Part shown: piece by piece, positions 33,336 to 48,558 of the stretch
Numbering within the stretch: position 1 is the first letter of the stretch
How the letters are laid out: each line of letters begins with the position of its first letter
From: Ferrimonas futtsuensis DSM 18154
GTDB lineage: Bacteria; Pseudomonadota; Gammaproteobacteria; Enterobacterales; Shewanellaceae
Length of the DNA stretch: 64,000 nucleotides
Direction: 5' to 3'
Assembly: GCF_000422645.1 (NCBI RefSeq)
Contig: NZ_AUGL01000001.1
Span: 310,001 to 374,000 of the forward strand
Program-made: the position numbers and the translations under genes
Notes under the pieces: generated by a model
Seen by the model: only the letters and a program-made list of their open reading frames with translations
What the model was told of the DNA's origin: nothing
Database searches by the model: none

Positions 33336-33914
33336 TTAGCTGTCCCAGCCCGCTTCCGATGCTCCTCGAACCGCCACCCTCTGGCGGAAGATTTCGGAGA
33401 TGGTCTCGGCATCACCGGCCAGCAGCGACTTGGTGGAGCACACCTCGGCGCAGAAGGGCAGCTTGCCCTCGGCGATGCGGTTAACACCGTAGAGCTCCAG
33501 TTCCTTGGCCGAGCCGGGCTCGGCGTCGGGACCACCGGCGCAATAGGTGCACTTGTCCATCTTGCCCTTGGATCCGAACACCGACTGTTTCGGGAACTGC
33601 GGCGCGCCGAAGGGGCAGGCGTAGAAGCAGTATCCGCAACCAATGCACTTATCCTTGGAGTGACGGACAATGCCGTCGGCGGTGCGCTCGAAGCAGTCCG
33701 CCGGACACACCGCCATGCAAGGGGCATCTGAACAATGCATGCAGGCCACCGAGATGGAGGCCTCCTTACCCACCTGACCGTCGTTGATGGTCACTACCCG
33801 GCGGCGCTGAATGCCCCACTCCAGGGCGGAGTCGTTCTTACTCTTACAGGCGACCACGCAACCGTTACACTCGATGCAGCGCTTGGTGTCGCAGAGGAAT
33901 TTCATCGTTGCCAT
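33336..33914 (-). CDS. fdhB: Formate dehydrogenase FeS (beta) subunit, copy 2
   Basis: A 192-residue four-cluster ferredoxin nearly collinear with copy 1 (27955-28548), with the same cysteine sets CIECNGC, CMHCSDAPCMAVC, CIGCGYCFYAC and CTYC plus a late C-x3-C. It differs mainly at its C-terminus. No membrane anchor. It starts with MATMKF 9 nt after fdhA. Confidence 0.93.
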   Translation of the reverse strand: MATMKFLCDTKRCIECNGCVVACKSKNDSALEWGIQRRRVVTINDGQVGKEASISVACMHCSDAPCMAVCPADCFERTADGIVRHSKDKCIGCGYCFYACPFGAPQFPKQSVFGSKGKMDKCTYCAGGPDAEPGSAKELELYGVNRIAEGKLPFCAEVCSTKSLLAGDAETISEIFRQRVAVRGASEAGWDS

Positions 33915-33923
33915 GGAGCCTCC

Positions 33924-36785
33924 TTATGCCCTGTTGATCTGGCAGATGGACACCTTGGTTTCCTGCATCTGGGTCACCGGGTCATAACCATAGGTCATGG
34001 CGGTGTTGGCAGACTCACCCTGGACATAGGGCACCGTGCCCTCAGGGTATCTTGGAACCAGACTTTCGCCTTCGAAGATGCCGGCGAAGTGATAGGGCAT
34101 GAAGCACTCACCCGGTATCACCCGTTCAGTGATCATGGCGTTGATCTCAAGCACCGGGCCTTCCGGACTGTGCAGGGTCACCGCATCCCCCTCCCTGATG
34201 CCGCGGTCCGCCGCATCCGCCGGATTCATCTCGACGAACATGGTCTGCTGCAGTTCCGCCAGCCAGGGGTTGGAGCGGGTCTCCTCACCACCACCCTCGT
34301 ACTCAACCAGTCGTCCGGTGGTCACGATCAACGGGAACTTCTTATCCAGATTCTCGCGAATCACCTTCTCCTGGATCGACTTGTACAGGGTCGGCAGGCG
34401 GTGCACCTGACGGTCATCCAGGTTGGGGTACTTCAGCGCCAGATCCCGTCTCGGGGTATACAGGGGCTCTCGGTGGATAGGCACGGGGTCCGGGAAGGTC
34501 CACACCTTGCATCGGGCGCGGGCGTTGCCATAGGGGATACAACCATGGGCCATGGCCACTCGCTGGATGCCGCCGGAAAGGTCGGTCTTCCAGTTGCGTC
34601 CTTCGGCCGCTTGTTGTTCTTCGGTGGTCAGTTCGCTCCACCAGCCCAGCTGTTTGAGCATCTGGTCGTTGAACTCGGGATGGCCACCGCCCAGCTCATT
34701 ACCCTTGGAACCCGGGTCGTCTGCCAGCAGATTCTGGCCCTCATACTCCACGCCGAAACGGGCACGGAAGTTACCGCCCCCCTCCATAATGTGCTTGGAG
34801 GTGTCATAGAGGATATGGGTACCTGGGTGTCCCAGTTGCGGGGTGCCCCAACAGGGCCAGGGGAGACCATAGGTTTCACCCTTGGCAGGGCCACCACGGG
34901 CCGCCAGATCCTCGAACTCGAAGGTGCCCCAGTTCATCTGGTGCATCTTCAGCCGTTCTGGGGACTGACCTGTCATACCGATGGTCCACATGCCCCGGTT
35001 CCACTCCCGGGTCACGTCCTCCACCAAAGGCTCGTTGTTATTGAGCTTGATGTTCTTACAGAACTGGTCACCAAAGCCCAGCTTCTTGGCCAGCAGATAC
35101 ATGATCTCCTGATCGGGCTTGGACTCGAACACCGGATCCACCACCTTGTCACGCCACTGAATGGAACGATTGGAGGCGGTGACCGAACCATAGGTCTCAA
35201 ACTGGGTGCAGGCGGGCAACAGGAACACGTTATCCTTGCGGGTGTGCATCACCGCTGCCATGGTGGGATAGGGATCCACCACCACCACCGCATCCATCTT
35301 GTCGAGGGCTTTGCGCACCTCCCGCCCACGGGTCTCGGTATTCACCGACTGTCCCCAGTAGAAGGCCATGCGGATGTTGTCTTTCTGGCCCAGCTTGGCC
35401 GGGTCCTCCATCACACCATCGTGCCAACGGGAACAGGGGATGCCCGGGGTGGTCATCGGCTTCTTACCCAGGTATTCACCCTGGTCAAAGCGGCTTTTCA
35501 CCCAATCGTAATCCAGCTCCCATACCCTGGACCAATGCTTCCAGGCCCCTTCGGAGAGGCCGTAGTAGCCGGGAAGGTTGTCAAACAGCAACCCCAGGTC
35601 GGTGGCACCCTGTACGTTGTCATGGCCACGGAAGATGTTGGCACCGCCGCCGGAGGTCCCCATGTTACCCAGGGCCAGCTGCAGGATGCAGTAGGCACGG
35701 GTGTTGGCGTTACCTACGGTGTGCTGAGTCCCCCCCATGCACCAGACTATGGTGCCGGGACGGTGTTCGGCCAGGGTCTTGGCCACCCGCTTCATCTGTT
35801 CACCGGTCACCCCGGTGATGTCCTCCACCTCGTCCGGTGGATAGTTCTTCACCTCGGCCTTGATCTCATCCATGGCCCAGACCCGGCGATCGATGAAGTC
35901 CTGGTCCTCCCAGCCATTTTCGAAGATGTGCCACAGCAGGCCGTAGATGAAGGGGATGTCGGTACCCGGGCGGATGTGCACGTACTCATCGGCGTGGGCC
36001 GCGGTACGGGTGAACCTGGGATCGACCACAATCATCTTGGCACCGCGCTCCTTGCCCACCAGAATGTGCTGCAGGGAAACCGGGTGCGCTTCGGCGGGGT
36101 TGGAACCGATAAACAGCATGCTCTTACAGTGGTGCATGTCGTTGTAAGAGTTGGTCATCGCCCCGTAGCCCCAGGTGTTGGCCACACCGGCTACCGTGGT
36201 GGAGTGACAGATCCGCGCCGAGTGGTCGATGTTGTTGGTGCCCCACATGGCGGCGAACTTGCGGTAGAGATAACACTGCTCATTGGAGAACTTGGCGCTG
36301 CCCATAAAGAACAGGGCATCGGGGCCGGACTCCTGACGGATCTTCAGCATCAGATCCCCCACCTGATTGATCGCTTCCTCCCAGGTGAGTTTCTTCCATT
36401 TTCCCCCCTCCAGTTTCATGGGGTATTTCACCCGCTTTTCACTGTGAGTGTGGTGAACCACCGACGCGCCTTTGGCGCAGTGGGCTCCCCGGTTGATGGG
36501 GTGGTCGAAGGCGGGTTCATGACCTGTCCAGACACCGCTGCTGACCTCGGCATAGATGCCGCAGCCCACAGAGCAGTGGGTGCAGATGGTTCGCTTGGTT
36601 TCCACCGGCCCCTTGGCCGCGCCGGACGCCTGAGCTTTACGAATCATGCCGGAACCCAGCATGGACGCCGCGGCGATGCCACCGGAGGCAATGCCTGCCT
36701 GCTTAAGGAACTGACGTCGATTCAAGCCCAGCGAGACCGACTCGCGAGCGGGTGTATTGACGTGAAGTTTGCGCATCAATTTCAT
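33924..36785 (-). CDS. fdhA: Formate dehydrogenase catalytic subunit, cysteine type, copy 2
   Basis: A 953-residue paralogue of copy 1 over its whole length. Twin-arginine leader NRRQFLKQAG, FeS cysteines C68, C71, C75 and C103, and cysteine ligand C193 in the identical block HSARICHSTTVAG. RBS GGGAGG precedes ATG 36785. A very long open frame on the opposite strand reflects codon bias only. Both copies look functional; sequence differences cluster at the leader and near the C-terminus (SLVPRYPEGTVPYV against LQYPESGGVSTKPYV in copy 1). Confidence 0.95.
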   Translation of the reverse strand: MKLMRKLHVNTPARESVSLGLNRRQFLKQAGIASGGIAAASMLGSGMIRKAQASGAAKGPVETKRTICTHCSVGCGIYAEVSSGVWTGHEPAFDHPINRGAHCAKGASVVHHTHSEKRVKYPMKLEGGKWKKLTWEEAINQVGDLMLKIRQESGPDALFFMGSAKFSNEQCYLYRKFAAMWGTNNIDHSARICHSTTVAGVANTWGYGAMTNSYNDMHHCKSMLFIGSNPAEAHPVSLQHILVGKERGAKMIVVDPRFTRTAAHADEYVHIRPGTDIPFIYGLLWHIFENGWEDQDFIDRRVWAMDEIKAEVKNYPPDEVEDITGVTGEQMKRVAKTLAEHRPGTIVWCMGGTQHTVGNANTRAYCILQLALGNMGTSGGGANIFRGHDNVQGATDLGLLFDNLPGYYGLSEGAWKHWSRVWELDYDWVKSRFDQGEYLGKKPMTTPGIPCSRWHDGVMEDPAKLGQKDNIRMAFYWGQSVNTETRGREVRKALDKMDAVVVVDPYPTMAAVMHTRKDNVFLLPACTQFETYGSVTASNRSIQWRDKVVDPVFESKPDQEIMYLLAKKLGFGDQFCKNIKLNNNEPLVEDVTREWNRGMWTIGMTGQSPERLKMHQMNWGTFEFEDLAARGGPAKGETYGLPWPCWGTPQLGHPGTHILYDTSKHIMEGGGNFRARFGVEYEGQNLLADDPGSKGNELGGGHPEFNDQMLKQLGWWSELTTEEQQAAEGRNWKTDLSGGIQRVAMAHGCIPYGNARARCKVWTFPDPVPIHREPLYTPRRDLALKYPNLDDRQVHRLPTLYKSIQEKVIRENLDKKFPLIVTTGRLVEYEGGGEETRSNPWLAELQQTMFVEMNPADAADRGIREGDAVTLHSPEGPVLEINAMITERVIPGECFMPYHFAGIFEGESLVPRYPEGTVPYVQGESANTAMTYGYDPVTQMQETKVSICQINRA

Positions 36786-36798
36786 ACTCGAGCCTCCC

Positions 36799-36993
36799 TC
36801 AGTCCTTTAGGGTCTGGTAGTAGGTTTGAACATGAGCCGTCAGCCGGAACCGGGTGTCGGATTGCGCCTCTTGGGTGGGAGACGGCGTCAGTGCCGCCTT
36901 GGCGCTGCCGCTGGCCAGAGCCAGGGTGCCTGCTCCCAGGCCAAAGGCCTTAAGCAGGGCGCGCCGCTGTTGCTGGGTTTGCCTGTCTTTCAT
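36799..36993 (-). CDS. fdhX: Small twin-arginine formate dehydrogenase accessory protein, copy 2
   Basis: A 64-residue paralogue of the 31455-31652 product with leader QQRRALLKAFGLG and C-terminal HVQTYYQTLKD. The ATG at 36993 is directly preceded by a hairpin containing the Shine-Dalgarno sequence, which could limit its translation. Confidence 0.85.
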   Translation of the reverse strand: MKDRQTQQQRRALLKAFGLGAGTLALASGSAKAALTPSPTQEAQSDTRFRLTAHVQTYYQTLKD

Positions 36994-37129
36994 AACACCT
37001 CCAAGGTGTTAATGGATTAAGGTGGGGCGACATCAGGCTGCCCCACCGCCGGGTACTCCGGACTTCAGGGAGTGGCTAGAAGTGTAGGGGGTGTTCACCT
37101 TTGGTGCCTGTTTTTACACCAACAAAGGT
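36994..37129 (-). promoter_or_regulatory. Leader hairpins before fdhX copy 2
   Basis: Three stem-loops lie between the chaperone gene and fdhX. AACACCT-TGG-AGGTGTT (36994-37010) encloses the GGAGGT ribosome site next to the ATG. GGTGGGGC-N11-GCCCCACC (37021-37047) has no T-run. ACCTTTGGTG pairs with CACC-AAC-AAAGGT (37097-37129). They may adjust expression of fdhXABC relative to the upstream accessory genes. Confidence 0.5.
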
Positions 37130-37162
37130 AAGCCCCCTATCTGGCCTCTCCCACCGTTTCGG

Positions 37163-37792
37163 TTAGATACTGCCCTCCTGAACCGGGGTATCCAGGGTCA
37201 GGGCGGCAAACTCATCCGCTTCCTGGGTAAAGAACTGCTCCGCCAGGTGGGCCACCGCCGCATAGAAGGCGGCTGCCTTGGCGTTGGCCAGATCGCCCCA
37301 GAGGCGATCTGCCCAGGGCTTCAGATGTTTGTTCCAGAAGCTCAGCTGCACATGCTGGGGGGTCTCCAGCAGCAGCACAGCCATCACTTCGCAAATGGCG
37401 GCGATGTGATCCTCCGGCTCCTTCACCTGCTCCTCGCGGGCAAAGCCGAGGCGGGCCAGGTCCTGACGCAGCTGCACCAGTTGGGTGTCCATCAGGGTAC
37501 CGGTCATGTACCAGCTGGCGTAGGGGATCACCTCACCATGGCCCAGGCCGATAAACAGATCGGTGTACTCCTGGGTGACGCTGTCGACGCTGTAGGTCTG
37601 CGCCGCCAGTTTCAGGCCACTCCAGGCACGCACCATCTCACCATCTTCGTCGCTGCTCACCTCCAGCTGACTGAGGAAATCCATCAGGTCCTGAGAGGGG
37701 GCGCTGCGCAGCAGGGCCGCCAGCAACTGGTAGATGTCGGCGCGGAACTGTTGCAACTCAGGCACCACTCGATTTTGCTGTTGTTCTGTCAT
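37163..37792 (-). CDS. TorD-family chaperone for formate dehydrogenase
   Basis: A 209-residue helical protein of the TorD/DmsD family; the signature QEYTDLFIGLGHGEVIPYASWY fits the conserved YTxLF...P...S-x-Y region. It lies between the ferredoxin gene and the fdhXABC operon, so its clients are presumably the twin-arginine FdhA and/or FdhX leaders. RBS AGAGGT precedes ATG 37792. In Shewanella the equivalent position is occupied by a TorD-like protein required for formate dehydrogenase maturation. Confidence 0.85.
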   Translation of the reverse strand: MTEQQQNRVVPELQQFRADIYQLLAALLRSAPSQDLMDFLSQLEVSSDEDGEMVRAWSGLKLAAQTYSVDSVTQEYTDLFIGLGHGEVIPYASWYMTGTLMDTQLVQLRQDLARLGFAREEQVKEPEDHIAAICEVMAVLLLETPQHVQLSFWNKHLKPWADRLWGDLANAKAAAFYAAVAHLAEQFFTQEADEFAALTLDTPVQEGSI

Positions 37793-37804
37793 GATTACCT
37801 CTGT

Positions 37805-39499
37805 TTAAACGCGCAGTTGCTTCTCAGGATCGTTCAGGATGTCTTCAAACATGTCTTTGACTCTGCAGTCTTCACACATCTGAATACGCTTGATGGCGTC
37901 GCCGGCAAAGGCGCTGTGGTTCTGCATCTGAGCAGTGATTTTGTTGATCACTGCGGCGGTGGCAAACGCCTTGCCACAGCGAATGCATTCGAATGGGGGC
38001 TCTTCGTGCAGTACCCGGGGTTGCTGACGCACTTCCCGGTCCAGAGTCACCTGGCTGACGAGGGTAATGGCCTTCTCGGGGCAAGCCTGTTCACACAGGC
38101 CGCACTGGACACAGGACTGCTCGATAAAATTGAGCGCCGGCATGTCACCGCCGTCGGTCAGGGCACGGGGCGGACACAGGGCGGAGCAGCTCTGACACAG
38201 GGTACACTTGTCGGTATCCACCACCACCTTGCCGTAGGACAGGTGTGGAATAGTCAGGACCTCCTTGTTGTCTGCGGCGCAGCCATTAAGGTGATCCAGG
38301 CCATTGTAGAAGGCGTCCCGTTTGGCCAGGCTGGCAGGGTAGGCGGCGATGGCCAGCTCGGGCCACTGAGCAGATTCAGCCACCTTTGCAACCAGTTGTG
38401 GCAACTGCTCCACACCCATCAGCTCGATGCGTCCGGGCAGGCCGATGGCCTCCAGTAGCTGGGCAGCAAGCGCCTGCTCCCGGGTCATCAGCGCCATCAG
38501 GGTGGGCGGCGTCACGTCGGTGGTCAGCACCACCACCTGACGGGCCCCCCAGGCCAGGGCGGAGAACCAGCTGTCGGTGGCGGCAACGGCAATCTCCTCC
38601 AGGGCAACAGGCAGCACCTCTCCGGGCAGTGCCTGCATCTGCTTCAGCGCCTCTTCACCGGCACTGGCATCGTGGAGCAGCACCACAGGACGGCTGTCCG
38701 CCAGCTCGATGTAACGGGTGATCAGTCGCTTCAGGTAATCCTGCAGGGTGGCCGGCGCCGGCTGGTCATAGCTGATGGCGCCGGTGGGGCAGGCATTGGC
38801 ACAGCTGCCTGCGCCGTGACACAGGTTATGGTCCACCACGATCTGGTTGTCGACACTGGCGATGGCATCGGCAGGGCAGAAGTTCAGGCAGCGGGTACAG
38901 CCATTGATGCCACTGCCGTGGTGAGCACAGATGTCTGAATTGATCTTCACATAGCGCGGCTTGGAAAACTCTCCCACCAACTCAGGCAACTGAGCCAGGG
39001 CAGACGCCAGCTTGTTGGCGTCCTCACCCACGTGGAAATAGCCCGGAGGCAACAGCTCCAGAGTCAGGCTGGGGCTCTGCCCCAGATCCAATACCAGGTC
39101 GTAGTGGGGACGGCGTACCGCTGCGGGCGCCAGCTCCAACTCCTTGTCGCTCTCCTTGATGAAGGCCTGGTACTGACCCAGGAAACCTTTCAGGCGAACC
39201 TGCTTGCTGTAGTAACTGGGCAGGTTTTCGGTGCGCTCCACGGCCTCCATTACCCTGGTCAGGTGTGTTTCATCCTGGCTGGTGATGGGGTCGGTGGCCA
39301 CCAAAGTCACTGAGGCCATGCCATCGAGATCGGCGGCGGCCAGACGAATGGCATCCTCCGGCCCGAGAATCAAAAGGTGGCCAGCGGTGGTGTAGGTAAC
39401 CGTCTGCGGGATCAGGTTTTCCAGCATCTGGACCTGAGCCAGCGCCTGTTCGGCGTATTGGGTATTGCTCACTGTGCGTTCCTGTTTCATTGTTGCCAT
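37805..39499 (-). CDS. Multi-cluster cytoplasmic ferredoxin, formate dehydrogenase accessory
   Basis: A 564-residue soluble protein with two pairs of ferredoxin cysteine groups. CTRCLNFCPAD and C-x5-CANACP lie near residues 205-240; CTLCQSCSALCPP and CVQCGLCEQACP lie near 440-490. C-terminal CIRCGKAF and CEDCRVKDMF follow. No signal peptide. It belongs to the 4Fe-4S proteins conserved beside DUF3305/DUF3306 and fdhX in proteobacterial formate dehydrogenase loci, probably supplying electrons or sulfur chemistry for cofactor maturation. The start is uncertain: ATG 39499, ATG 39490 and GTG 39472 (AGGAAC upstream) are all possible. Confidence 0.85.
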   Translation of the reverse strand: MATMKQERTVSNTQYAEQALAQVQMLENLIPQTVTYTTAGHLLILGPEDAIRLAAADLDGMASVTLVATDPITSQDETHLTRVMEAVERTENLPSYYSKQVRLKGFLGQYQAFIKESDKELELAPAAVRRPHYDLVLDLGQSPSLTLELLPPGYFHVGEDANKLASALAQLPELVGEFSKPRYVKINSDICAHHGSGINGCTRCLNFCPADAIASVDNQIVVDHNLCHGAGSCANACPTGAISYDQPAPATLQDYLKRLITRYIELADSRPVVLLHDASAGEEALKQMQALPGEVLPVALEEIAVAATDSWFSALAWGARQVVVLTTDVTPPTLMALMTREQALAAQLLEAIGLPGRIELMGVEQLPQLVAKVAESAQWPELAIAAYPASLAKRDAFYNGLDHLNGCAADNKEVLTIPHLSYGKVVVDTDKCTLCQSCSALCPPRALTDGGDMPALNFIEQSCVQCGLCEQACPEKAITLVSQVTLDREVRQQPRVLHEEPPFECIRCGKAFATAAVINKITAQMQNHSAFAGDAIKRIQMCEDCRVKDMFEDILNDPEKQLRV

Positions 39500-39608
39500 C
39501 GCCACCCTGTGTCTGTGCCGGGCGGTCGTGACTGTGGATTCTTTTTTAATCAGTTGATCAGCAAAGGCTGTACCAACAACTCACCTAAGAGGCTGACTTC
39601 AAACCCGG

Positions 39609-40208
39609 TCAGCTCTGCCGAGATGGGTCATCCTGTTCTGCCTCTGGGTCAAGATGTCCCGGCTCACCGGCGGCACCGGGTAATTCTGGCTGGTTATCTC
39701 CGCCTTCGCCGGATTCCTGCTCGGCCTTCGCCAGGGCTTCACGGCGACGCTCCTCCTCCAGGGCCTTATCCAGATGGCGGAACACCTGAGTGGCCACCTC
39801 TTTGGCCACCTGAGCACTGAGCTTGGGTTGATCGCTGTAGTCCAGGGCGTACTCCGCCATGCCGTCGGTGATGTTGTATTGAGGCTGGCTCCACAGGGCT
39901 CGCAGGGCATCACGCTTCTTGGTGGGATCAACCCCCTCCTTGAGAAACGCGGCGAAGCTGCCTCCCTCCTCGATGGCGTCCGGGTCCGGCAGGGCCTCAG
40001 TCTCCTCCTCGGAGCTGGCACGCGCCTCCTCAGACACAGCCTCCTCATCGACCGCCTCTTCCGCCTCCTGTGCGGCCAATGCCTGCTCTTTGGCAGCCTG
40101 TTCTTCGGCTGCCTGCTCCTGAGCCAGGCGCTCCTCCTCCTGCTCCTCCTTGACCTTGGTCAGCCGCTGCTGCCAACGGGAAAGCAAACCGGGCTTAGGG
40201 TCGGTCAT
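39609..40208 (-). CDS. DUF3306 family protein
   Basis: A 199-residue hydrophilic protein. Residues about 8-75 are a charged Glu/Ala/Gln-rich coiled segment, then the DUF3306 core (FAAFLKEGVDPTKKRDALRALWSQPQYN...DGMAEYALDY), then a disordered acidic tail. It overlaps the DUF3305 gene by 14 nt. The family is found with formate dehydrogenase operons; its function is unknown, with an accessory maturation role likely. Confidence 0.85.
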   Translation of the reverse strand: MTDPKPGLLSRWQQRLTKVKEEQEEERLAQEQAAEEQAAKEQALAAQEAEEAVDEEAVSEEARASSEEETEALPDPDAIEEGGSFAAFLKEGVDPTKKRDALRALWSQPQYNITDGMAEYALDYSDQPKLSAQVAKEVATQVFRHLDKALEEERRREALAKAEQESGEGGDNQPELPGAAGEPGHLDPEAEQDDPSRQS

Positions 40209-40662
40209 GGCGTTTCTCCCGACGCTCTTTCATCTCTCCACGCACATCGATGTGCTTGCGGCGATGGGCGCAAATCTGCTGCTCACCGTGGCGGGTAATG
40301 AAGGCTTCAATCCAGCAGCCCACTGCCTTGGGCAGCGGATAGGTAAAGACCGGCTGATCGCTTTCCAGGCAGCCAGCGGCGATGTTCTGGTTGGCGGTCA
40401 CCAGCATGGGGATGGGCATTCCCGACTCATCTTCGTCGCACACCACAAACAGCAGAGGGTTATCCAGGTCCAGGTTGAGGCGGTAGTTGGCGCGCTCATC
40501 CAAGTGCAGCTCCAGTCCCACCAGGGTGGCGCCCTCTACCTGCTCGGCATCGCCGGGAAGCAGTGCTTCCACCGACCAGCGAGTCTCGCTCCAGCGGCCC
40601 ATGGTGACCTGTTCGGATTTCAGCTTGACCTGAAGCGGCCAGACGTTTTCGGTTCGTTGCAT
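40195..40662 (-). CDS. DUF3305 family protein
   Basis: A 155-residue protein with the DUF3305 signature (WPLQVKLKSEQVTMGRWSETRWSVEALLP) and a conserved C-terminal WIEAFITRHGEQQI. It is the first gene of a long minus-strand run: DUF3305, DUF3306, ferredoxin, TorD chaperone, fdhX-A-B-C copy 2. ATG 40662 follows AGGGCGAGGAACCG. A sigma54 promoter lies about 50 bp upstream of the ATG. Role in formate dehydrogenase maturation inferred from conserved linkage. Confidence 0.85.
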   Translation of the reverse strand: MQRTENVWPLQVKLKSEQVTMGRWSETRWSVEALLPGDAEQVEGATLVGLELHLDERANYRLNLDLDNPLLFVVCDEDESGMPIPMLVTANQNIAAGCLESDQPVFTYPLPKAVGCWIEAFITRHGEQQICAHRRKHIDVRGEMKERREKRHDRP

Positions 40663-40712
40663 CGGTTCCTCGCCCTGTGATGGCTGTTCCGCACTTATGT
40701 GTGGTCCACAAG

Positions 40713-40730
40713 CTGCAAAAACCGTTCCAA
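40713..40730 (-). promoter_or_regulatory. Sigma54 promoter for the DUF3305-fdh copy 2 operon
   Basis: Minus strand TTGGAACGGTTTTTGCAG: the -24 GG and -12 GC are separated by exactly 10 nt as sigma54 requires, with TGGAAC/TTGCA close to TGGCAC/TTGCW. Start predicted near 40703, about 40 nt before the DUF3305 ATG. Confidence 0.7.
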
Positions 40731-40781
40731 CGCAAAATGGGGGAGAATACGTGAGAATGATCACATCCTCACGCACAGTAA

Positions 40782-40835
40782 GGACATTTTGTCCCAACCG
40801 GGTCAGGGTGTTGGGTCAAACTGGTCAAAATGGGG
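40782..40835. promoter_or_regulatory. Shared upstream activator sites for two divergent sigma54 promoters
   Basis: GGACATTTTGTCC (40782-40794) is a palindrome around CATTTTG; GGTCAAAATGGGG (40823-40835) is a second copy in reverse orientation (CCCCATTTTGACC), 41 bp away centre to centre. They lie about 85 and 126 bp upstream of the leftward start and 116 and 75 bp upstream of the rightward start. The same core occurs in front of tupA at 46214-46257. Confidence 0.6.
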
Positions 40836-40877
40836 TGACGCCATTCACAGAGTTGGCCGCCACAGGCCCCTAAATGC

Positions 40878-40893
40878 TGGAACAGTTTTTGCT
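40878..40893 (+). promoter_or_regulatory. Sigma54 promoter for fdhD
   Basis: TGGAACAGTTTTTGCT: GG and GC separated by 10 nt, nearly the same sequence as the divergent promoter at 40713-40730. Start predicted near 40904, about 36 nt before the fdhD ATG. Confidence 0.7.
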
Positions 40894-40939: not shown

Positions 40940-41755
40940 ATGCCCCAATTCAGTCGAACCGACACCGATGCCCCACTGACCAAGACGGTGGTGGCCATCG
41001 ATGCCACCGGCCAGCGCCTGGAAAAACAGATCGCCTGTGAGCGCCCCCTGACCCTCTACCTCAATTGGCAGCCCATAGTGACCCTGATGACCCTGGGAGC
41101 CCGCCCGGAGAAGCTGGCGCTGGGTTACCTGAAGAACCAGGGCTTCATCAGCGACGTAGAGAAAGTGGAGTCGGTGATCGTCGACTGGTCCGTCAACTCC
41201 GCCGCGGTGATCACCGGCGAGTCCATCGAAGGACTGCAGGAGAAACTGAGCGAGAAGACCGTCACCTCCGGGTGTGGCCAGGGTTCGGTGTTTGGCAGCT
41301 TCATGGCCGATGTGGACAACATTCGCCTGCCGGTGCCCAGCCTGAAGCAGTCCACCATCTACGGCTTGCTTAAAAATCTCGGCGAATACAACGAAACCTA
41401 CAAAAACGCCGGGGCGGTACACGGCTGCGGCGTCTGCCAACAGACCGAGATCCTCTCCTTCGTGGAGGACATCGGCCGTCACAACGCAGTGGATACCCTG
41501 GCGGGTGAGCTGTTTCTGAAGCGCCAGTCCGGCGATAATCTGATCTTCTACACCACGGGCCGTCTCACTTCGGAGATGGTGATCAAGGTGGCCAAGATGG
41601 GCATTCCGGTGCTGGTCTCCCGTTCCGGCATTACCGAGATGGGGCTTGAACTGGCCCAAAAACTGGGCATCACTCTGGTCTCCCGGGCAAAGGGACGCCA
41701 CTTCCTGGTCTACAACGGCGCTGAAACCATAGAATTCGATGAGGTCCCTGCATGA
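40940..41755 (+). CDS. fdhD: Formate dehydrogenase sulfurtransferase FdhD
   Basis: A 271-residue protein of the FdhD family, which binds the molybdopterin guanine dinucleotide cofactor and passes sulfur from IscS to it so that formate dehydrogenase becomes active. The family motif with its paired cysteines is present (HGCGVCQ), as are the DIGRHNAVD and TTGRLTSEMV blocks. ATG 40940 was chosen over an in-frame TTG at 40922. Its stop overlaps the next gene's ATG by 4 nt. Confidence 0.92.
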   Translation: MPQFSRTDTDAPLTKTVVAIDATGQRLEKQIACERPLTLYLNWQPIVTLMTLGARPEKLALGYLKNQGFISDVEKVESVIVDWSVNSAAVITGESIEGLQEKLSEKTVTSGCGQGSVFGSFMADVDNIRLPVPSLKQSTIYGLLKNLGEYNETYKNAGAVHGCGVCQQTEILSFVEDIGRHNAVDTLAGELFLKRQSGDNLIFYTTGRLTSEMVIKVAKMGIPVLVSRSGITEMGLELAQKLGITLVSRAKGRHFLVYNGAETIEFDEVPA

Positions 41756-42657
41756 CGACGGAACGCGAAAACCTGTTTATGAACGCCAAGGAGGTTGCCG
41801 AGTATCTCGACCTGAACGAGAAAAAGGTATACGCCATGGCCAACGAGCAGCAGTTGCCTGGCACCAAGGTGACTGGGAAATGGTTGTTCCCCAAGCCGAT
41901 GATCGATCGCTGGGTGATGGAGTCCTGCCACTTTGGCATGCTCTCCGACCGGCTGATCATCACCGGCAGCGACGACCCCCTACTGCAGTGGGTGATCAAC
42001 CGGCTGGGGCGCCGCATCGAATCCGCCGGCCTGGTGAACTACTGCTCCACCGGCTCCAAGCTGGGCCTGAACCAGTTGGCCAGGGGTCATGCGGATGTGT
42101 GCGCCATGCACTGGGGGGATGAAGCGGAGCGGGATCTTCGCCACACCGCCCTGCTCAAACGCCATCCTCAGTTTAAACAGTGGGTGATGGTCCACGCCTG
42201 CAGCCGCGATTACGGCCTGATGATGCGCAGTGACCACCAGCACCTGTGCCATGACCTGGGCGAAACCCTGGCCCTGCGCTACCGCTGGGTGACCCGCCAG
42301 GAGGGCGCCGGCGCCCGTCACCACTTCGACAACTGGCTCACCAAGATGCACCGCACCACCACAGACATCAACGTGGTCAGCACCGCCTACAGTGAACGGG
42401 AGCTGGCGGGCATGATCGCCCGCAACGAGGCGGAGTTTGGCATGGGGTGCCAGGGGATCGCCGGCGAGTTTGGTCTGGCGTTTGTGCCCCTGGGCAAGGA
42501 GTCTTTCGACCTGGTGATGCCCCAGGGCGTCTACTTCCGTTACCTGCTGCAACAGCTGTTTGAGCTGATGCAGACCCCGGATACCCTGGCCTTCGCCCAG
42601 CGCCTTGGCGGCTACGACCTCTCCGGCTGTGGCCGGATTATCTGGAGCCCGAGCTGA
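41752..42657 (+). CDS. Helix-turn-helix regulator with molybdate/tungstate-type binding-protein domain
   Basis: A 301-residue protein. Residues about 10-55 are an excisionase/MerR-like helix-turn-helix (AKEVAEYLDLNEKKVYAMANE...KWLFPKPMIDRWV). Residues about 65-295 resemble the PBP-like domain (PF12727 type) that is often attached to MoeA or ModE-like proteins and is related to oxyanion-binding proteins. Translationally coupled to fdhD (ATGA overlap), it is a likely cofactor- or metal-status sensor for formate dehydrogenase genes. Ligand not known. Confidence 0.75.
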   Translation: MTTERENLFMNAKEVAEYLDLNEKKVYAMANEQQLPGTKVTGKWLFPKPMIDRWVMESCHFGMLSDRLIITGSDDPLLQWVINRLGRRIESAGLVNYCSTGSKLGLNQLARGHADVCAMHWGDEAERDLRHTALLKRHPQFKQWVMVHACSRDYGLMMRSDHQHLCHDLGETLALRYRWVTRQEGAGARHHFDNWLTKMHRTTTDINVVSTAYSERELAGMIARNEAEFGMGCQGIAGEFGLAFVPLGKESFDLVMPQGVYFRYLLQQLFELMQTPDTLAFAQRLGGYDLSGCGRIIWSPS

Positions 42658-42672
42658 GGCTGCCCCTCGATG

Positions 42673-42701
42673 AAAAAGGGCGCCCTGTGGGCGCCCTTTT
42701 T
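42673..42701. terminator. Bidirectional terminator
   Basis: AAAAAGGGCGCCC-TGT-GGGCGCCCTTTTT, a near-perfect symmetric hairpin between the convergent regulator and sensor-kinase genes, with a T-run on both strands. Confidence 0.93.
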
Positions 42702-44790
42702 CATTGCAGTCCTCGGAGACTGATGGACTGGGTCTCCTCTTCCTCCGAAGGGGCCTCCTTGGGAAGGTTGATGGTAAAGGTGGTCCCAACCCCCTTGGTG
42801 GAGTCCACCTCAATCTGCCCCCCGAAGCGGCGAATGATGCCGTAGGAAAGGGCCAACCCCAGGCCGGTGCCGGTCTTGCGGGTAGTGAAGAAGGGATCGA
42901 AGATTCTGGGCAACAGCTCGGGATCGATGCCGCACCCGTCGTCGGACACCGCCATCTGCACCCCTTTCACCTGGCCCTGTTCATCCAGCCAGTCGCGGGT
43001 GCTCACCCGAATCTGACCACGCTCCTCCATGGCATGACTGGCGTTGATCACCAGGTTGATCAGTACCTGCAGCAGCTGCTGACGGTTGACCACCACTTCA
43101 GCGCTCGCCTGGGGGTCGAGCGCCACATCGATGGCCCGCTTCTCGATAGAGTGGCGCACCAACACCCGCATCTCTTCGACAATGGGGTTGATCGGCTGGC
43201 GTTCCAGCGGAGCATCGAAGTCGCCAGGTCGGGCGTACTGCAGCAGGGACTGGATGATCGCCTTGATGCGCTGCACCTGCTGCAGCACCAGCTCAATCTC
43301 CTCCTCCACATCCTCGGCCCGATCTCCCAGCTCAAACTTCATCAGCTCCATGTTGCCCAGAATCACCGCGGTGGGGTTATTGATCTCATGGGCAATGCCG
43401 GCGGTGAGCTCACCCAGGGCCACCAGTTTTTCGTTGGTGACCATCTGTGCCCGGGTCTCCTCCAGCAGCTGCAGGTTCTCCTTTAATTCACGGGTACGTT
43501 GCTTGAGACTGCGGGTGCGCTCCTCCACCTTGAACTCCAGCTGTTCCGCCGCCGCCTTGATCTGACGGTTGCGCTGCTGCAGCAGATCCAGCATAAGGTC
43601 AAATTGTCGCGCCAGCTGGGACAGCTCATTGTCCGGATCCAACCCCAGGTTGCCGATGCGCCGCTCCTTGCCCTCCTGCATCGCCCGAACCACGGTATGG
43701 ATACGATCCAGGGGTTTCAGCAGACCGGTGGCACCCTTGTACACCGCCAGGCCGGAGAGGGACAGCACCACCATCAGGATGAAACCCAGTTCGAGGATGT
43801 TCAGCAGATAGTTGTGGATAAAAGGCGCTTCGGTGAACCCGGTGTAGAGCATGCCGATGCGCTTGCCGTCCACGTCATACAGCGGCGCATAGGCCGAGAT
43901 GTACCAGTCGTCGTACACGAAAGCCCGGTCAATCCACACCTGGCCCTTATCCAGCACCTTCATCCGCACCTGATCCGACACCAGGGAACCGATGGCCCGG
44001 CGTTCGCCGTCGCGGGCACCGGGTACATTGGTGCTGATGCGCACGCTGTCCAGAAACAGGGTCACCGTGCCGATGGCATCCTGAGGCAGGGTACCCGGGG
44101 CATAAAGCAGGTCGCGGATGTTATCCACCAGAGTCTGATTGCGGTTGAGCAGCACCCCGCCATCCAGATAACCCACCACTTCACCGCTGGTGGCCTTTAC
44201 CTTGAGCAGGGTGCGCATCACCATGCCTCGGCTCTCCATGCCACCGGTGCTGGAGGCGGACATGGGGGTGGACAAAATGGGCATCTCGGCACGGCGGGCC
44301 AATACCGGTCCCAGGGAGGCCAGCTCAGGCTTTTGCAGGACCTGGATGCCAGAGCGGGCCCGTTCGCCATCGGCAGGCATCAGCTTGGCCAGCCTGGGCT
44401 CCAGCAGCACCTGCTCCAGGGTGAGCAACCGCAGGAAATCCAGACCGAGATCCTCCCGGCTCTTCTCCAGCAACCGGTTGATGGCCACATTGTGGGAGTC
44501 CTGGGCGGTCAGCAGACTCTTCAGCTGCCAGGCACTCTGAACCTGGGAGATCACCTGCTCCTGGTCATTAAGCTGCTCGAGGATCACCCCCTGGGCCACG
44601 CCAAGGTCGGCGCGCACCTTCATAAACAGCTGGCTGCCGGTGTAGGAGACGTTCCAGTAGATGGTGATAAACACCAGACTGGCCAGGGTCAGCAACACAG
44701 GCAGCAACATCAGCACCAGCAAACGGTAACGCACCGTGCTGGTCAACAGGCGAACGTCTCCTTCGAAACGTTTACGCCAATAGGAGAAGA

Positions 44791-44809
<19 letters not shown>
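42701..44809 (-). CDS. Membrane sensor histidine kinase (NtrB-like core, Cache-type sensor)
   Basis: A 702-residue kinase. Transmembrane segments at about 30-52 and 345-370 flank a periplasmic sensor of about 290 residues of double-Cache type (YDDWYISAYAPLYD...RIGMLYTGF). HAMP (about 370-420), a coiled segment (EEQLEFKVEERTRSLKQRT region), the phospho-acceptor histidine in GIAHEINNPTAVILGN, and ATPase boxes NLVINASHAM, DDGCGI and GTGLGLA follow. It starts at GTG 44809 or GTG 44794, the latter giving a 4-nt overlap with the response-regulator gene. Its partner is the sigma54 activator next door; formate or tungstate status is a plausible signal. Confidence 0.88.
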
Positions 44810-46167
<1,358 letters not shown>

Positions 46168-46213
46168 GGCGCTGCATTGTCCGATTGATATGGAGCCAAT
46201 TTGTCCCAGGCTA

Positions 46214-46257
46214 GGCCATTTTGGCCGTGCCCGCTTCAAGGGTGTGTCATTTTGACC
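46214..46257. promoter_or_regulatory. Paired activator sites upstream of tupA
   Basis: GGCCATTTTGGCC (46214-46226) and TGTCATTTTGACC (46245-46257), both palindromic around ATTTT and 31 bp apart (three helical turns), at about -118 and -87 from the predicted tupA start. They share the CATTTTG core with the sites at 40782-40835. Being next to the response-regulator gene, they may also serve autoregulation. Confidence 0.6.
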
Positions 46258-46310
46258 TAGTTGACCAGCAAAATCCTGTGAGACAGCTCAAACTTTTCAA
46301 GGAATTCGAG

Positions 46311-46328
46311 TTGGCATCTAAATTGCTG
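46311..46328 (+). promoter_or_regulatory. Sigma54 promoter for tupABC
   Basis: TTGGCATCTAAATTGCTG: TGGCAT and TTGCT with the -24 GG and -12 GC separated by 10 nt, close to the consensus TGGCAC-N5-TTGCW. Start predicted near 46338, 37 nt before the tupA ATG. Confidence 0.7.
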
Positions 46329-46374
46329 TTCGTATAAAAGAACTTGCCATACCCAAATAAAAATGGAGAAACAG

Positions 46375-47172
46375 ATGAAGCGCATCGTCACCGGCCTGTT
46401 GGCCCTGACCCTAAGTTTTGGCGCCTTTGCGGCCAAGGACGTAAAACTGGCTACCACCACCAGCACCGACAACTCAGGTCTGCTGGCCTACCTGCTGCCC
46501 GCCTTTGAACAGGACAGCGGCTACCACATCCAGGTGATCGCCACCGGCACCGGCAAGGCTCTGCGCCACGGTCGTAACGGTGATGTGGATCTGGTGATGA
46601 CCCACGCCCCAGGTGCCGAAGCCAAGTTTGTCGACGACGGCTTTGGCCGTATGCCACGTCAGATCATGGCCAACGACTTCATTATCCTGGGTCCCGACAG
46701 CGATCCGGCAGACCTGAAACACGCCAACGGCATCGCCGATGCCATGAAGCGCATCCACGATACCAACGCCATCTTCGTGTCCCGTGGCGACGAGTCCGGC
46801 ACCCACATGAAGGAGCTGAACCTGTGGAAGAAGGCCAAGGTATCCAATGAATACGCCGGTTACCGCGCCATCGGCCAGGGCATGGGCCCAGCCCTGCTGA
46901 CCGCCAATGAAATGCAGGGTTACCTGCTGGCAGACCGCGGCACCTACCTGGCCTTTATGCACAAGCTGAAGCTGAAAGTGCTGTTTGAGGGCGACGCGAC
47001 CCTGCAAAACCCCTATCAGGTGATTCTGATCAATGACAAGAAGTACCCAGATCTGAATCATGACGGCGCCAAAGCCTTCTCCGACTGGCTGATCAGCGAC
47101 AAAGGTCAGAAGATGATCAATGATTTCCGCATCAAAGGTCAGCCGCTGTTTAAAGCGACCTACAAAAAGTAG
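46375..47172 (+). CDS. tupA: Tungstate ABC transporter, periplasmic binding protein
   Basis: A 265-residue secreted protein (signal peptide ending FGAFA-AK). The mature N-terminus carries LATTTSTDNSGLL, the TupA/WtpA-type oxyanion-binding motif, and FVSRGDESGTH is the second ligand loop. TupA binds tungstate with much higher affinity than molybdate in characterised species. ATG 46375 follows GGAGAAACAG. First gene of a run tupA-tupB-tupC-mobA-mobB/moeA-moaA. Confidence 0.9.
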   Translation: MKRIVTGLLALTLSFGAFAAKDVKLATTTSTDNSGLLAYLLPAFEQDSGYHIQVIATGTGKALRHGRNGDVDLVMTHAPGAEAKFVDDGFGRMPRQIMANDFIILGPDSDPADLKHANGIADAMKRIHDTNAIFVSRGDESGTHMKELNLWKKAKVSNEYAGYRAIGQGMGPALLTANEMQGYLLADRGTYLAFMHKLKLKVLFEGDATLQNPYQVILINDKKYPDLNHDGAKAFSDWLISDKGQKMINDFRIKGQPLFKATYKK

Positions 47173-47177
47173 TGTGA

Positions 47178-47885
47178 ATGAGTAGCACCCTAGACACCCT
47201 GCAGCAGGCCGTCGGCCTGCTGCTCAGCTTTGATCATAAGGTGTGGAGCATCATCCTGGTCTCCTTCACTGTCTCGGTCAAAGCCCTGGGCCTGAGTCTG
47301 ATACCCGCCATCATGGCGGGTTTTGTGCTTGCTCAGGGACGCTTTCCCGGACGCCACACCTTTATCGCCCTGTTCCAGACTCTGCAGGCGATTCCCACCG
47401 TGGTGGTGGGCCTGATGGTCTACCTCCTGCTGTTCCGCCAGGGCCCAATGGGCGATCTCCGCTGGCTGTTCACCCAGAACGCCATGGTGATGGGTCAGAT
47501 CATGCTGGCCACGCCAGTTTTGGTCTCCACCAGTTACGCCGCCTTCGCCAGCGGTGACTGGCGAGCCTGGGAAACCGCCCGAACCCTGGGTGCGTCCAAG
47601 CTGAGGGCGTTTCTGACCCTGTGTCACGAACTCAGAGTGCCACTGATGGTGGCCATCATCGCCGCTTTCAGCCGTATCATTACCGAAGTGGGCAGTTCCA
47701 TGCTGGTGGGGGGAAACATTCAGAACCTGACCCGCAACATGCCCACAGCCATCGCCCTGGAAACCAGCAAAGGGGAGTTCGCTCAGGCGGCCGCCCTGGG
47801 TATGGTGCTGGTGTTCCTGGCGCTGTTGCTGAACTTCTCTCTGAGCGCGTTGCGCGGAAAACAGGAGCATCGTCATCGTGGTTAA
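47178..47885 (+). CDS. tupB: Tungstate ABC transporter permease
   Basis: A 235-residue permease with about five to six transmembrane helices and the cytoplasmic EAA-type loop ([17 protein letters not shown]). It aligns with TupB-type permeases: [16 protein letters not shown] near the N-terminus and [17 protein letters not shown]. It begins 5 nt after tupA and overlaps tupC by 8 nt. Confidence 0.9.
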
Positions 47886-48558
47886 GGTCTCCCTTATTGA
47901 TCCCCTGATCGCCGTGGAAGGGCGCACCCTGCTGCAGGCGGAAGAGATCAGCATCGAGGCTGGGCAGAGCATCTGGCTGCGAGGCGCCAACGGCGCCGGC
48001 AAAACCACCCTGCTCAAGACCCTGGCCGGACTGCGTAAGCCCGATGGCGGCGAGCGCAGAGTCGATGGCGCACCTGGCCCCTGGTGGCGCCTTAAGGTGG
48101 GTGCGGGTCAGATCATCTATCTGCATCAGACCCCCTATCTGTTCGACGGCAGTGTCCGTCAAAACCTGGCTTACAGCCTCAGCCTGCTGCCGATGAACCG
48201 CAGCGACAAAGAGGCCCGAATCGACGAAGCGCTGCGCGCAGCCGAACTGACTCATCTGGTGGACCGTCCCGCCCAGGTGCTGTCAGGGGGCGAACGTCAG
48301 CGTCTGGCCCTGGCCCGGGCCTGGGTGGTGCGTCCGGCGATCCTGCTGCTCGATGAACCCACCGCCAACCTGGACCAGCACTCCATCGAGGTGGTGGCTG
48401 CCATGGTGACCCAGTTGCAACAGCGAGGCTGCGGCATTATGGTCACCAGTCACCAGACCACAGAGGTGACCAGGCTGTGCCGCGACGTATGGCAGATTCA
48501 CAATGGCCACCTGTTTCATACTGTCAGCGAGGAACACCCCCGTGCCAGCTACCAATAA
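47878..48558 (+). CDS. tupC: Tungstate ABC transporter ATPase
   Basis: A 226-residue ABC ATPase starting at GTG 47878 inside the end of tupB. Walker A GANGAGKT, signature LSGGERQR, Walker B ILLLDEP and H-loop TSHQ are intact. It powers import through TupB. The C-terminus overlaps the mobA start by 17 nt. Confidence 0.9.

Follow-up and report, generated by a model that had tools for sequence, protein, structure and literature searches.

How a bacterium coordinates a formate dehydrogenase with its maturation proteins, and which regulator does so, is the question raised by the intergenic region between fdhD and a DUF3305 gene in the window, the whole 64-kb stretch of Ferrimonas DNA analyzed here. 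An earlier note on this DNA proposed that two sigma54 promoters point outward from this region and share a palindromic enhancer. We find it very likely that these promoters belong to a larger sigma54 regulon for formate respiration, in which four promoters under one two-component activator join the fdh genes, their maturation set, and the supply of metal and cofactor. The genes concerned are as follows.

33336..33914, minus strand: FdhB Fe-S subunit (name from translation; 70-87% identity in 35 relatives)
33924..36785, minus strand: FdhA, cysteine type, with ARICHST at residue 190 (domain search and translation)
37163..37792, minus strand: TorD/NarJ-type chaperone (PF02613)
37805..39505, minus strand: multi-[4Fe-4S] maturation protein, the Fe-S gene below (domain search)
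39609..40208, minus strand: DUF3306 accessory protein (PF11748)
40195..40662, minus strand: DUF3305 accessory protein (PF11749)
40940..41755, plus strand: FdhD sulfurtransferase (PF02634)
41752..42657, plus strand: HTH_17-PBP_like regulator, overlapping fdhD (domain search and ORF list)
42701..44770, minus strand: sensor histidine kinase with a single-Cache domain (domain search)
44791..46167, minus strand: NtrC-type response regulator with REC, AAA+ carrying GAFTGA, and Fis-type HTH domains (PF00072, PF00158, PF02954); proposed activator
46363..48558, plus strand: tupABC tungstate transporter (TupA by NF041772, below the curated cut-off; TupB and TupC from translations)

We take ARICHST in FdhA to be the cysteine-type site. 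Homologues of mobA, moeA, and moaA, named from their translations, lie 3′ of tupABC. Between torD and fdhA, a small unlisted ORF (36786-37162, minus strand) has a twin-arginine-type start, MKDRQTQQQRRALLKAFGLGAG, and its predicted product fits the FdhX (fdh Tat) protein. The DUF3305 protein of the window is 93% identical to that of Ferrimonas sediminicola, the nearest named record among the best 80 of 236.

Sigma54 elements of the fdh and tup genes

The sigma54 (−24/−12) consensus is TGGNAY-N5-TTGCW, and the cluster has four elements that satisfy GG-N10-GC within it.

39560..39576, minus strand: internal element 5′ of the Fe-S gene, TTGGTACAGCCTTTGCT (sequence reading)
40714..40730, minus strand: element of the DUF3305 promoter, TTGGAACGGTTTTTGCA (sequence reading and conservation)
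40877..40893, plus strand: element of the fdhD promoter, CTGGAACAGTTTTTGCT (sequence reading and conservation)
46311..46327, plus strand: element of the tupA promoter, TTGGCATCTAAATTGCT (sequence reading)

The two outward-facing elements of the earlier note are thus in place, and the divergent pair is real. The elements at the Fe-S gene, upstream of torD and fdhXABC, and at tupABC with its cofactor genes are additional and make the proposed regulon wider. TGGNAYN5TTGCW has 36 matches in the 4.3-Mb genome and its reversed control 6; this 6.8-kb cluster holds 4 of the 36 (Poisson P of about 4e-7). RpoN is encoded in the same genome (PF04552). A short palindrome, TGTGGTCCACA, lies at 40700-40710, just 3′ of the −12 element of DUF3305.

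Conservation was read in two sets of loci, an order sample of 197 genomes taken from a larger group and 80 named loci, the best of 236 and nearly all from Shewanella and Ferrimonas; the counts that follow cover related genomes rather than independent events. Judged by DUF3305, 36 of the 197 genomes, spread over five genera, have the cluster, and fdhD is divergent from DUF3305, the Fe-S gene, torD, and fdhABC in 35/35 relatives (this search does not pick up DUF3306 in every case). Elements were scored with weights that we set from the consensus. Of 116 fdhD/DUF3305 intergenic regions in the two sets together, 111 are distinct; the DUF3305 side has an element with a score of 17.5 or more in 109 of these and the fdhD side in 103. 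Both sides reach that score in 103/111, with the divergent order in 102, compared to 1.5% of 1,110 single-letter shuffles. Conservation across Ferrimonas and Shewanella genomes, which the earlier note had suggested as a check, bears out the pair.

Eight regions lack one or both elements. In two of them (G030 and G083) neither side has one. In the other six (L033, L035, L038, L041, L137, and G099), of which five belong to the Shewanella group and one to g22, the fdhD element is missing and the one at DUF3305 is kept. The DUF3305-side match of L103 (18.0) is doubtful. At L047 and L049, both in genus group g35, about 1.9 kb separates DUF3305 from fdhD and elements are kept near both genes; regions of this length leave more room for chance elements. 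Elsewhere in the cluster, an element scoring at least 19.5 faces tupA in 30/30 of the regulator loci examined, and no Fe-S element scoring at least 18 was found in 6/9 order-sample and 15/67 named Shewanella-group loci. One locus with a Ferrimonas-type cluster, L100 (NZ_JAHVJZ010000005.1), comes from a record titled Marinobacter nauticus DP3N21-5, which is probably a mislabelled Ferrimonas. Shewanella sp. ANA-3 also carries the locus (L144).

Palindromic sites and their distances

Between the two divergent promoters the earlier note had seen a palindrome, which is present as GGACATTTTGTCC at 40782-40794. Using the relatives, we could widen it to TGGGACA-N3-TGTCCCA, and sites resembling this consensus were found near all four promoters.

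39645..39661, no strand: candidate enhancer of the Fe-S promoter, CGGGACATCTTGACCCA, within the 3′ end of the DUF3306 gene and 85 bp from the Fe-S element
40780..40796, no strand: main candidate enhancer, AAGGACATTTTGTCCCA, 2 of 14 specified letters off; 66 bp from the DUF3305 element and 97 bp from the fdhD element
40812..40828, no strand: weaker second candidate site, TGGGTCAAACTGGTCAA, 4 of 14 letters off; 65 bp from the fdhD element and 32 bp from the main site
46192..46208, no strand: enhancer-like site 5′ of tupA, 3 of 14 letters off
46243..46259, no strand: second enhancer-like site 5′ of tupA, 4 of 14 letters off

The feature described as a reversed second copy fits better as the weaker site at 40812-40828, in a different register. 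The heptamer CAAAATG on which that description was based occurs at 40826-40832 and also at 40733-40739, the latter missing from the earlier note, and we rejected this copy as a full second site.

Support for the palindrome comes from conservation and not from the window, where GGACAN3TGTCC with up to one mismatch is not enriched over the 64 kb (5 found versus 3.3 expected). Across the whole genome as well, there is no enrichment at up to three mismatches (240 matches versus 457 for the control). Among relatives, a palindrome with up to three mismatches lies between fdhD and DUF3305 in 82/91 regions of Ferrimonas, Shewanella, and Paraferrimonas (5 of the 91 being duplicates), compared to 0.27% of shuffles. 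Among the loci read, it has this position only in these three. In genus groups g22, g3, and g35 it is found there in just 1/12, 0/10, and 0/3 loci, with the divergent sigma54 elements mostly persisting, and it is placed instead at the Fe-S and tupA promoters. With this restriction, the earlier note's proposal of a palindromic enhancer between the two promoters is supported. At the same mismatch limit, the palindrome is present 5′ of the Fe-S gene in 11/12 g22, 10/10 g3, 3/3 g35, and 1/2 g1 loci, and in 0/9 of the order-sample Shewanella-group loci; between the regulator gene and tupA it is present in 28/30. The shuffle controls for these palindrome counts range from 0 to 3.3%.

In loci with such a site at the Fe-S promoter, it is 83-86 bp from the element in 30/31; four g3 loci have a better site at 116 bp. 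From the DUF3305 element, the distance is mostly 66-68 bp in Ferrimonas and Shewanella. For the Shewanella group, the distances that match best are 66-67 and 98 bp from the DUF3305 element and 101, 111, and 70 bp from the fdhD element. Strict helical phasing over all promoters was dropped as a rule, since the distances vary by promoter and group (about 66, 85, 90, 97-101, 111, and 119-143 bp).

The exact form TGNGACAN3TGTCNCA falls in the fdh/tup cluster for 15/17 of its matches in g22 and 10/12 in g3. None of 6 matches in regulator-bearing Shewanella-group genomes, nor the single one in g35, does so; the genome of the window and G030 have no match. This looser form is nonspecific alone, with 22 occurrences in 38 genomes without the cluster. 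A search for further regulon members in the genome of the window gave 25 positions with up to two mismatches, and only 2 of these, both in this cluster, are within 200 bp of any of the 36 sigma54 matches. A near-perfect copy, TGGGTCATTTTGACCCA, at 82342-82358 of contig C4 (1843-1859 of L179) was rejected as a regulon site; its nearest element with a score of at least 20 lies within an aroA-like gene at a distance of about 1.1 kb. The copy sits between this gene and a cmk-like one (names read from the ORFs) and may belong to a different regulator.

A kinase-regulator pair as candidate activator

The regulator encoded beside the cluster, which the earlier note had singled out for a DNA-binding test, gains support as the likely activator from its distribution. 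Counted at E ≤ 1e-110 over the 197 order-sample genomes, it is found in 35 of the 36 that have DUF3305 and in none of the 161 others. The kinase gene and tupA adjoin it in 30/30 of the regulator loci examined; in the Shewanella group the kinase-regulator pair is located away from the fdh cluster. Its recognition helix, GNKSAAxRxLGVxRKTLxRKxKxW, is nearly invariant in 30/30 regulators. In the window the loop is GAFTGA, the motif that contacts sigma54, and GAFTGA or GSFTGA is present in 46 regulators besides that of G030 (34/35 of the order sample and 12 further genus members). For the sensor domain of the kinase, the search for solved relatives gave weak ones only (LuxQ, E of 0.013). As judged from these sequences, we regard the NtrC-type response regulator as the leading candidate to bind the palindrome.

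Two genomes have lost parts of this arrangement. G083, the one DUF3305 genome without the regulator, still has the fdh cluster, yet no sigma54 element or palindrome was found in its fdhD/DUF3305 region or 5′ of its Fe-S gene; one look-alike (18.0) lies inside the DUF3305 gene. G030, of the same genus as the window, has both the regulator and RpoN, with no elements at DUF3305, fdhD, or the Fe-S gene and a weak one (19.5) at tupA. Its regulator reads DAFAGG instead of GAFTGA and retains the recognition helix, along with what we take to be the phospho-acceptor region, Walker motifs, and arginine finger. The regulator is present in each of the 14 genus members examined. Strong elements stand before both DUF3305 and fdhD in 12 of them; in G341 the fdhD element is good and the DUF3305 one doubtful, and G030 has neither. 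G030 offers a case from nature in which a regulator has lost its sigma54 contact along with its promoters. This regulator may by now have other target promoters or work as a repressor.

A proposed formate respiration regulon

Part of this control has been described in Vibrio. According to the available text of PMC9817140, expression of VP1508, VP1510-VP1515, and VP1501 is reduced in an rpoN mutant of Vibrio parahaemolyticus; RpoN ChIP peaks in Vibrio cholerae are indicated for VP1508, VP1510, and VP1501; RpoN by itself gave no shift of the VP1510 promoter in vitro; and a link between RpoN and fdh in V. cholerae is credited to Dong and Mekalanos (2012). VP1501 and VP1508 are termed hypothetical there. 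Sequence comparison placed the published VP1508 and VP1501 sites, letter for letter, before DUF3305 and tupA in one genome of group g22 (G273), and the VP1510 site, with one letter different, before its Fe-S gene. From these positions, VP1508 probably corresponds to DUF3305 and VP1501 to tupA; from the same sequences and the gene order we infer that g22 is Vibrio. The Vibrio regulon thus matches ours in orthologous genes, by synteny, and in promoter positions. The statement in the earlier note that sigma54 control of such an enzyme was undescribed for this group is only partly right: we found no description for Ferrimonas or Shewanella, but RpoN control of the orthologous Vibrio operon is published in the text cited.

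Other reports, again as far as their available text goes, touch the same genes. In a ribD mutant of V. cholerae, joint increases are reported for VC1510-VC1518 and VC1523-VC1524, with no mention of VC1519, and VC1514-1516 (one printed as VCA1516) are assigned to the iron regulon (PMC5816637), so that some other control exists as well. VC1519 is called a formate dehydrogenase protein (PMC6479200). VC1522, divergent from VC1523 (PMC6855506), is listed as a response regulator (PMC4441509), and its position and class fit the gene order of the window. DUF3305 and DUF3306 have been noted beside fdh operons (PMC4464133), and a survey lists formate dehydrogenases among predicted sigma54 targets (PMC12316311). 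In the available text of the open-licence literature, we found no publication naming the activator or its site. Our additions are a proposed activator with its motif, the arm for tungstate and cofactors, and the joint decay of regulator loop and promoters.

We propose that sigma54-RNA polymerase would sit closed at four −24/−12 promoters, whose predicted transcripts are DUF3305-DUF3306, fdhD with the HTH/PBP gene, the internal Fe-S-torD-fdhXABC unit, and tupABC with the cofactor genes. The Cache-domain kinase and the response regulator would together sense a signal, and the phosphorylated regulator would bind TGGGACA-N3-TGTCCCA 65-120 bp upstream and open the polymerase. Between fdhD and DUF3305, the two sites about 32 bp apart could serve both promoters. 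The observations beneath this scheme are the elements, their conservation and spacing, the co-occurrence of the regulator, and the parallel decay.

Could the elements instead be chance look-alikes, the genes being read from conventional sigma70 promoters controlled by Fnr, Crp, or Fur? The motif is short, an iron link is reported for V. cholerae (PMC5816637, available text), and G083 manages without sigma54 elements at these genes, as G030 does apart from the weak one at tupA. Nonetheless, the genome count against its control and the conservation far above shuffles led us to rule out a chance origin of the elements; given also the fixed spacing and the RpoN dependence of the orthologues (PMC9817140, available text), such a reading seems very improbable. 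It is somewhat less improbable, though still unlikely, that the promoters are sigma54 promoters activated by another enhancer-binding protein, with the palindrome bound by a different factor such as the HTH-PBP protein, whose gene overlaps fdhD in the window and has the palindrome in its promoter region. That gene is absent from the neighborhood in 6/9 order-sample Shewanella-group loci and 12/12 g22 loci, where elements or palindromes remain except in G083, and we rejected it as the general binder; moreover, the presence and sigma54 loop of the NtrC-type regulator track the elements.

Whether the intergenic enhancer co-activates is a closer matter. That one enhancer pair fires both divergent promoters is plausible from the layout, but a second site in several Ferrimonas, together with the absence of the palindrome from most g22, g3, and g35 loci with divergent elements, leaves room for separate or distant activation. 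Each promoter might have its own site, with the two directions set independently, and we hold this to be a real possibility, if not the one we would choose. It is consistent with five of eight other Ferrimonas-type loci (L099, L100, L101, L102, and L109), which have a second site (up to four mismatches) 67 bp from the fdhD element, the first four of them also having one 66 bp from the DUF3305 element. It is likewise consistent with four of the nine order-sample Shewanella-group loci, where the fdhD element is absent and the DUF3305 element is kept along with a palindrome that has 2 to 4 mismatches. Against it, a single shared pair of sites, spaced about 31 bp, would account in part for the Shewanella-group distances.

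On balance, we favor the kinase-regulator pair as the missing activator of RpoN-driven fdh genes across several gammaproteobacterial genera. It would couple the enzyme to tungstate uptake and cofactor supply through four promoters with enhancers at fixed distances, one enhancer serving two divergent promoters; the enhancer would have moved between promoters by lineage, and the loss of both loop and fdh elements in G030 would be a natural case of sigma-factor rewiring. A single regulator with a defined site would explain how RpoN drives the Vibrio formate dehydrogenase and, in Shewanella, which can be worked with in the laboratory, would link the enzyme to the supply of tungstate and molybdopterin. 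The signal that turns on formate respiration then becomes a directly testable question.

These features can be set beside known systems. At glnA, NtrC binds two palindromic sites about 32 bp apart and about 100 bp upstream. The enhancer proposed here shares the NtrC-type protein and that arrangement of sites and differs in its half-site, GGACA, its divergent layout, and its targets. In the FhlA regulon of Escherichia coli, sigma54 and an enhancer-binding protein control the genes for formate enzymes. That protein, FhlA, differs from a response regulator in having no REC domain, and it binds formate itself through GAF domains. (For formate binding by FhlA, compare the available text of PMC11291172.) The regulator of the window has REC and, in the domain search, no GAF match at E ≤ 0.001, which places it outside the FhlA regulon; the likeness lies in formate enzyme genes controlled by sigma54 and an enhancer-binding protein, and the difference in a REC-domain regulator with a kinase and in the cysteine-type enzyme. 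Closest is the RpoN-dependent fdh operon of Vibrio, where Fe-S and fdh genes are likewise under RpoN with a −24/−12 element; the available text of PMC9817140 names no activator, enhancer motif, fdhD gene or promoter, or tungstate link.
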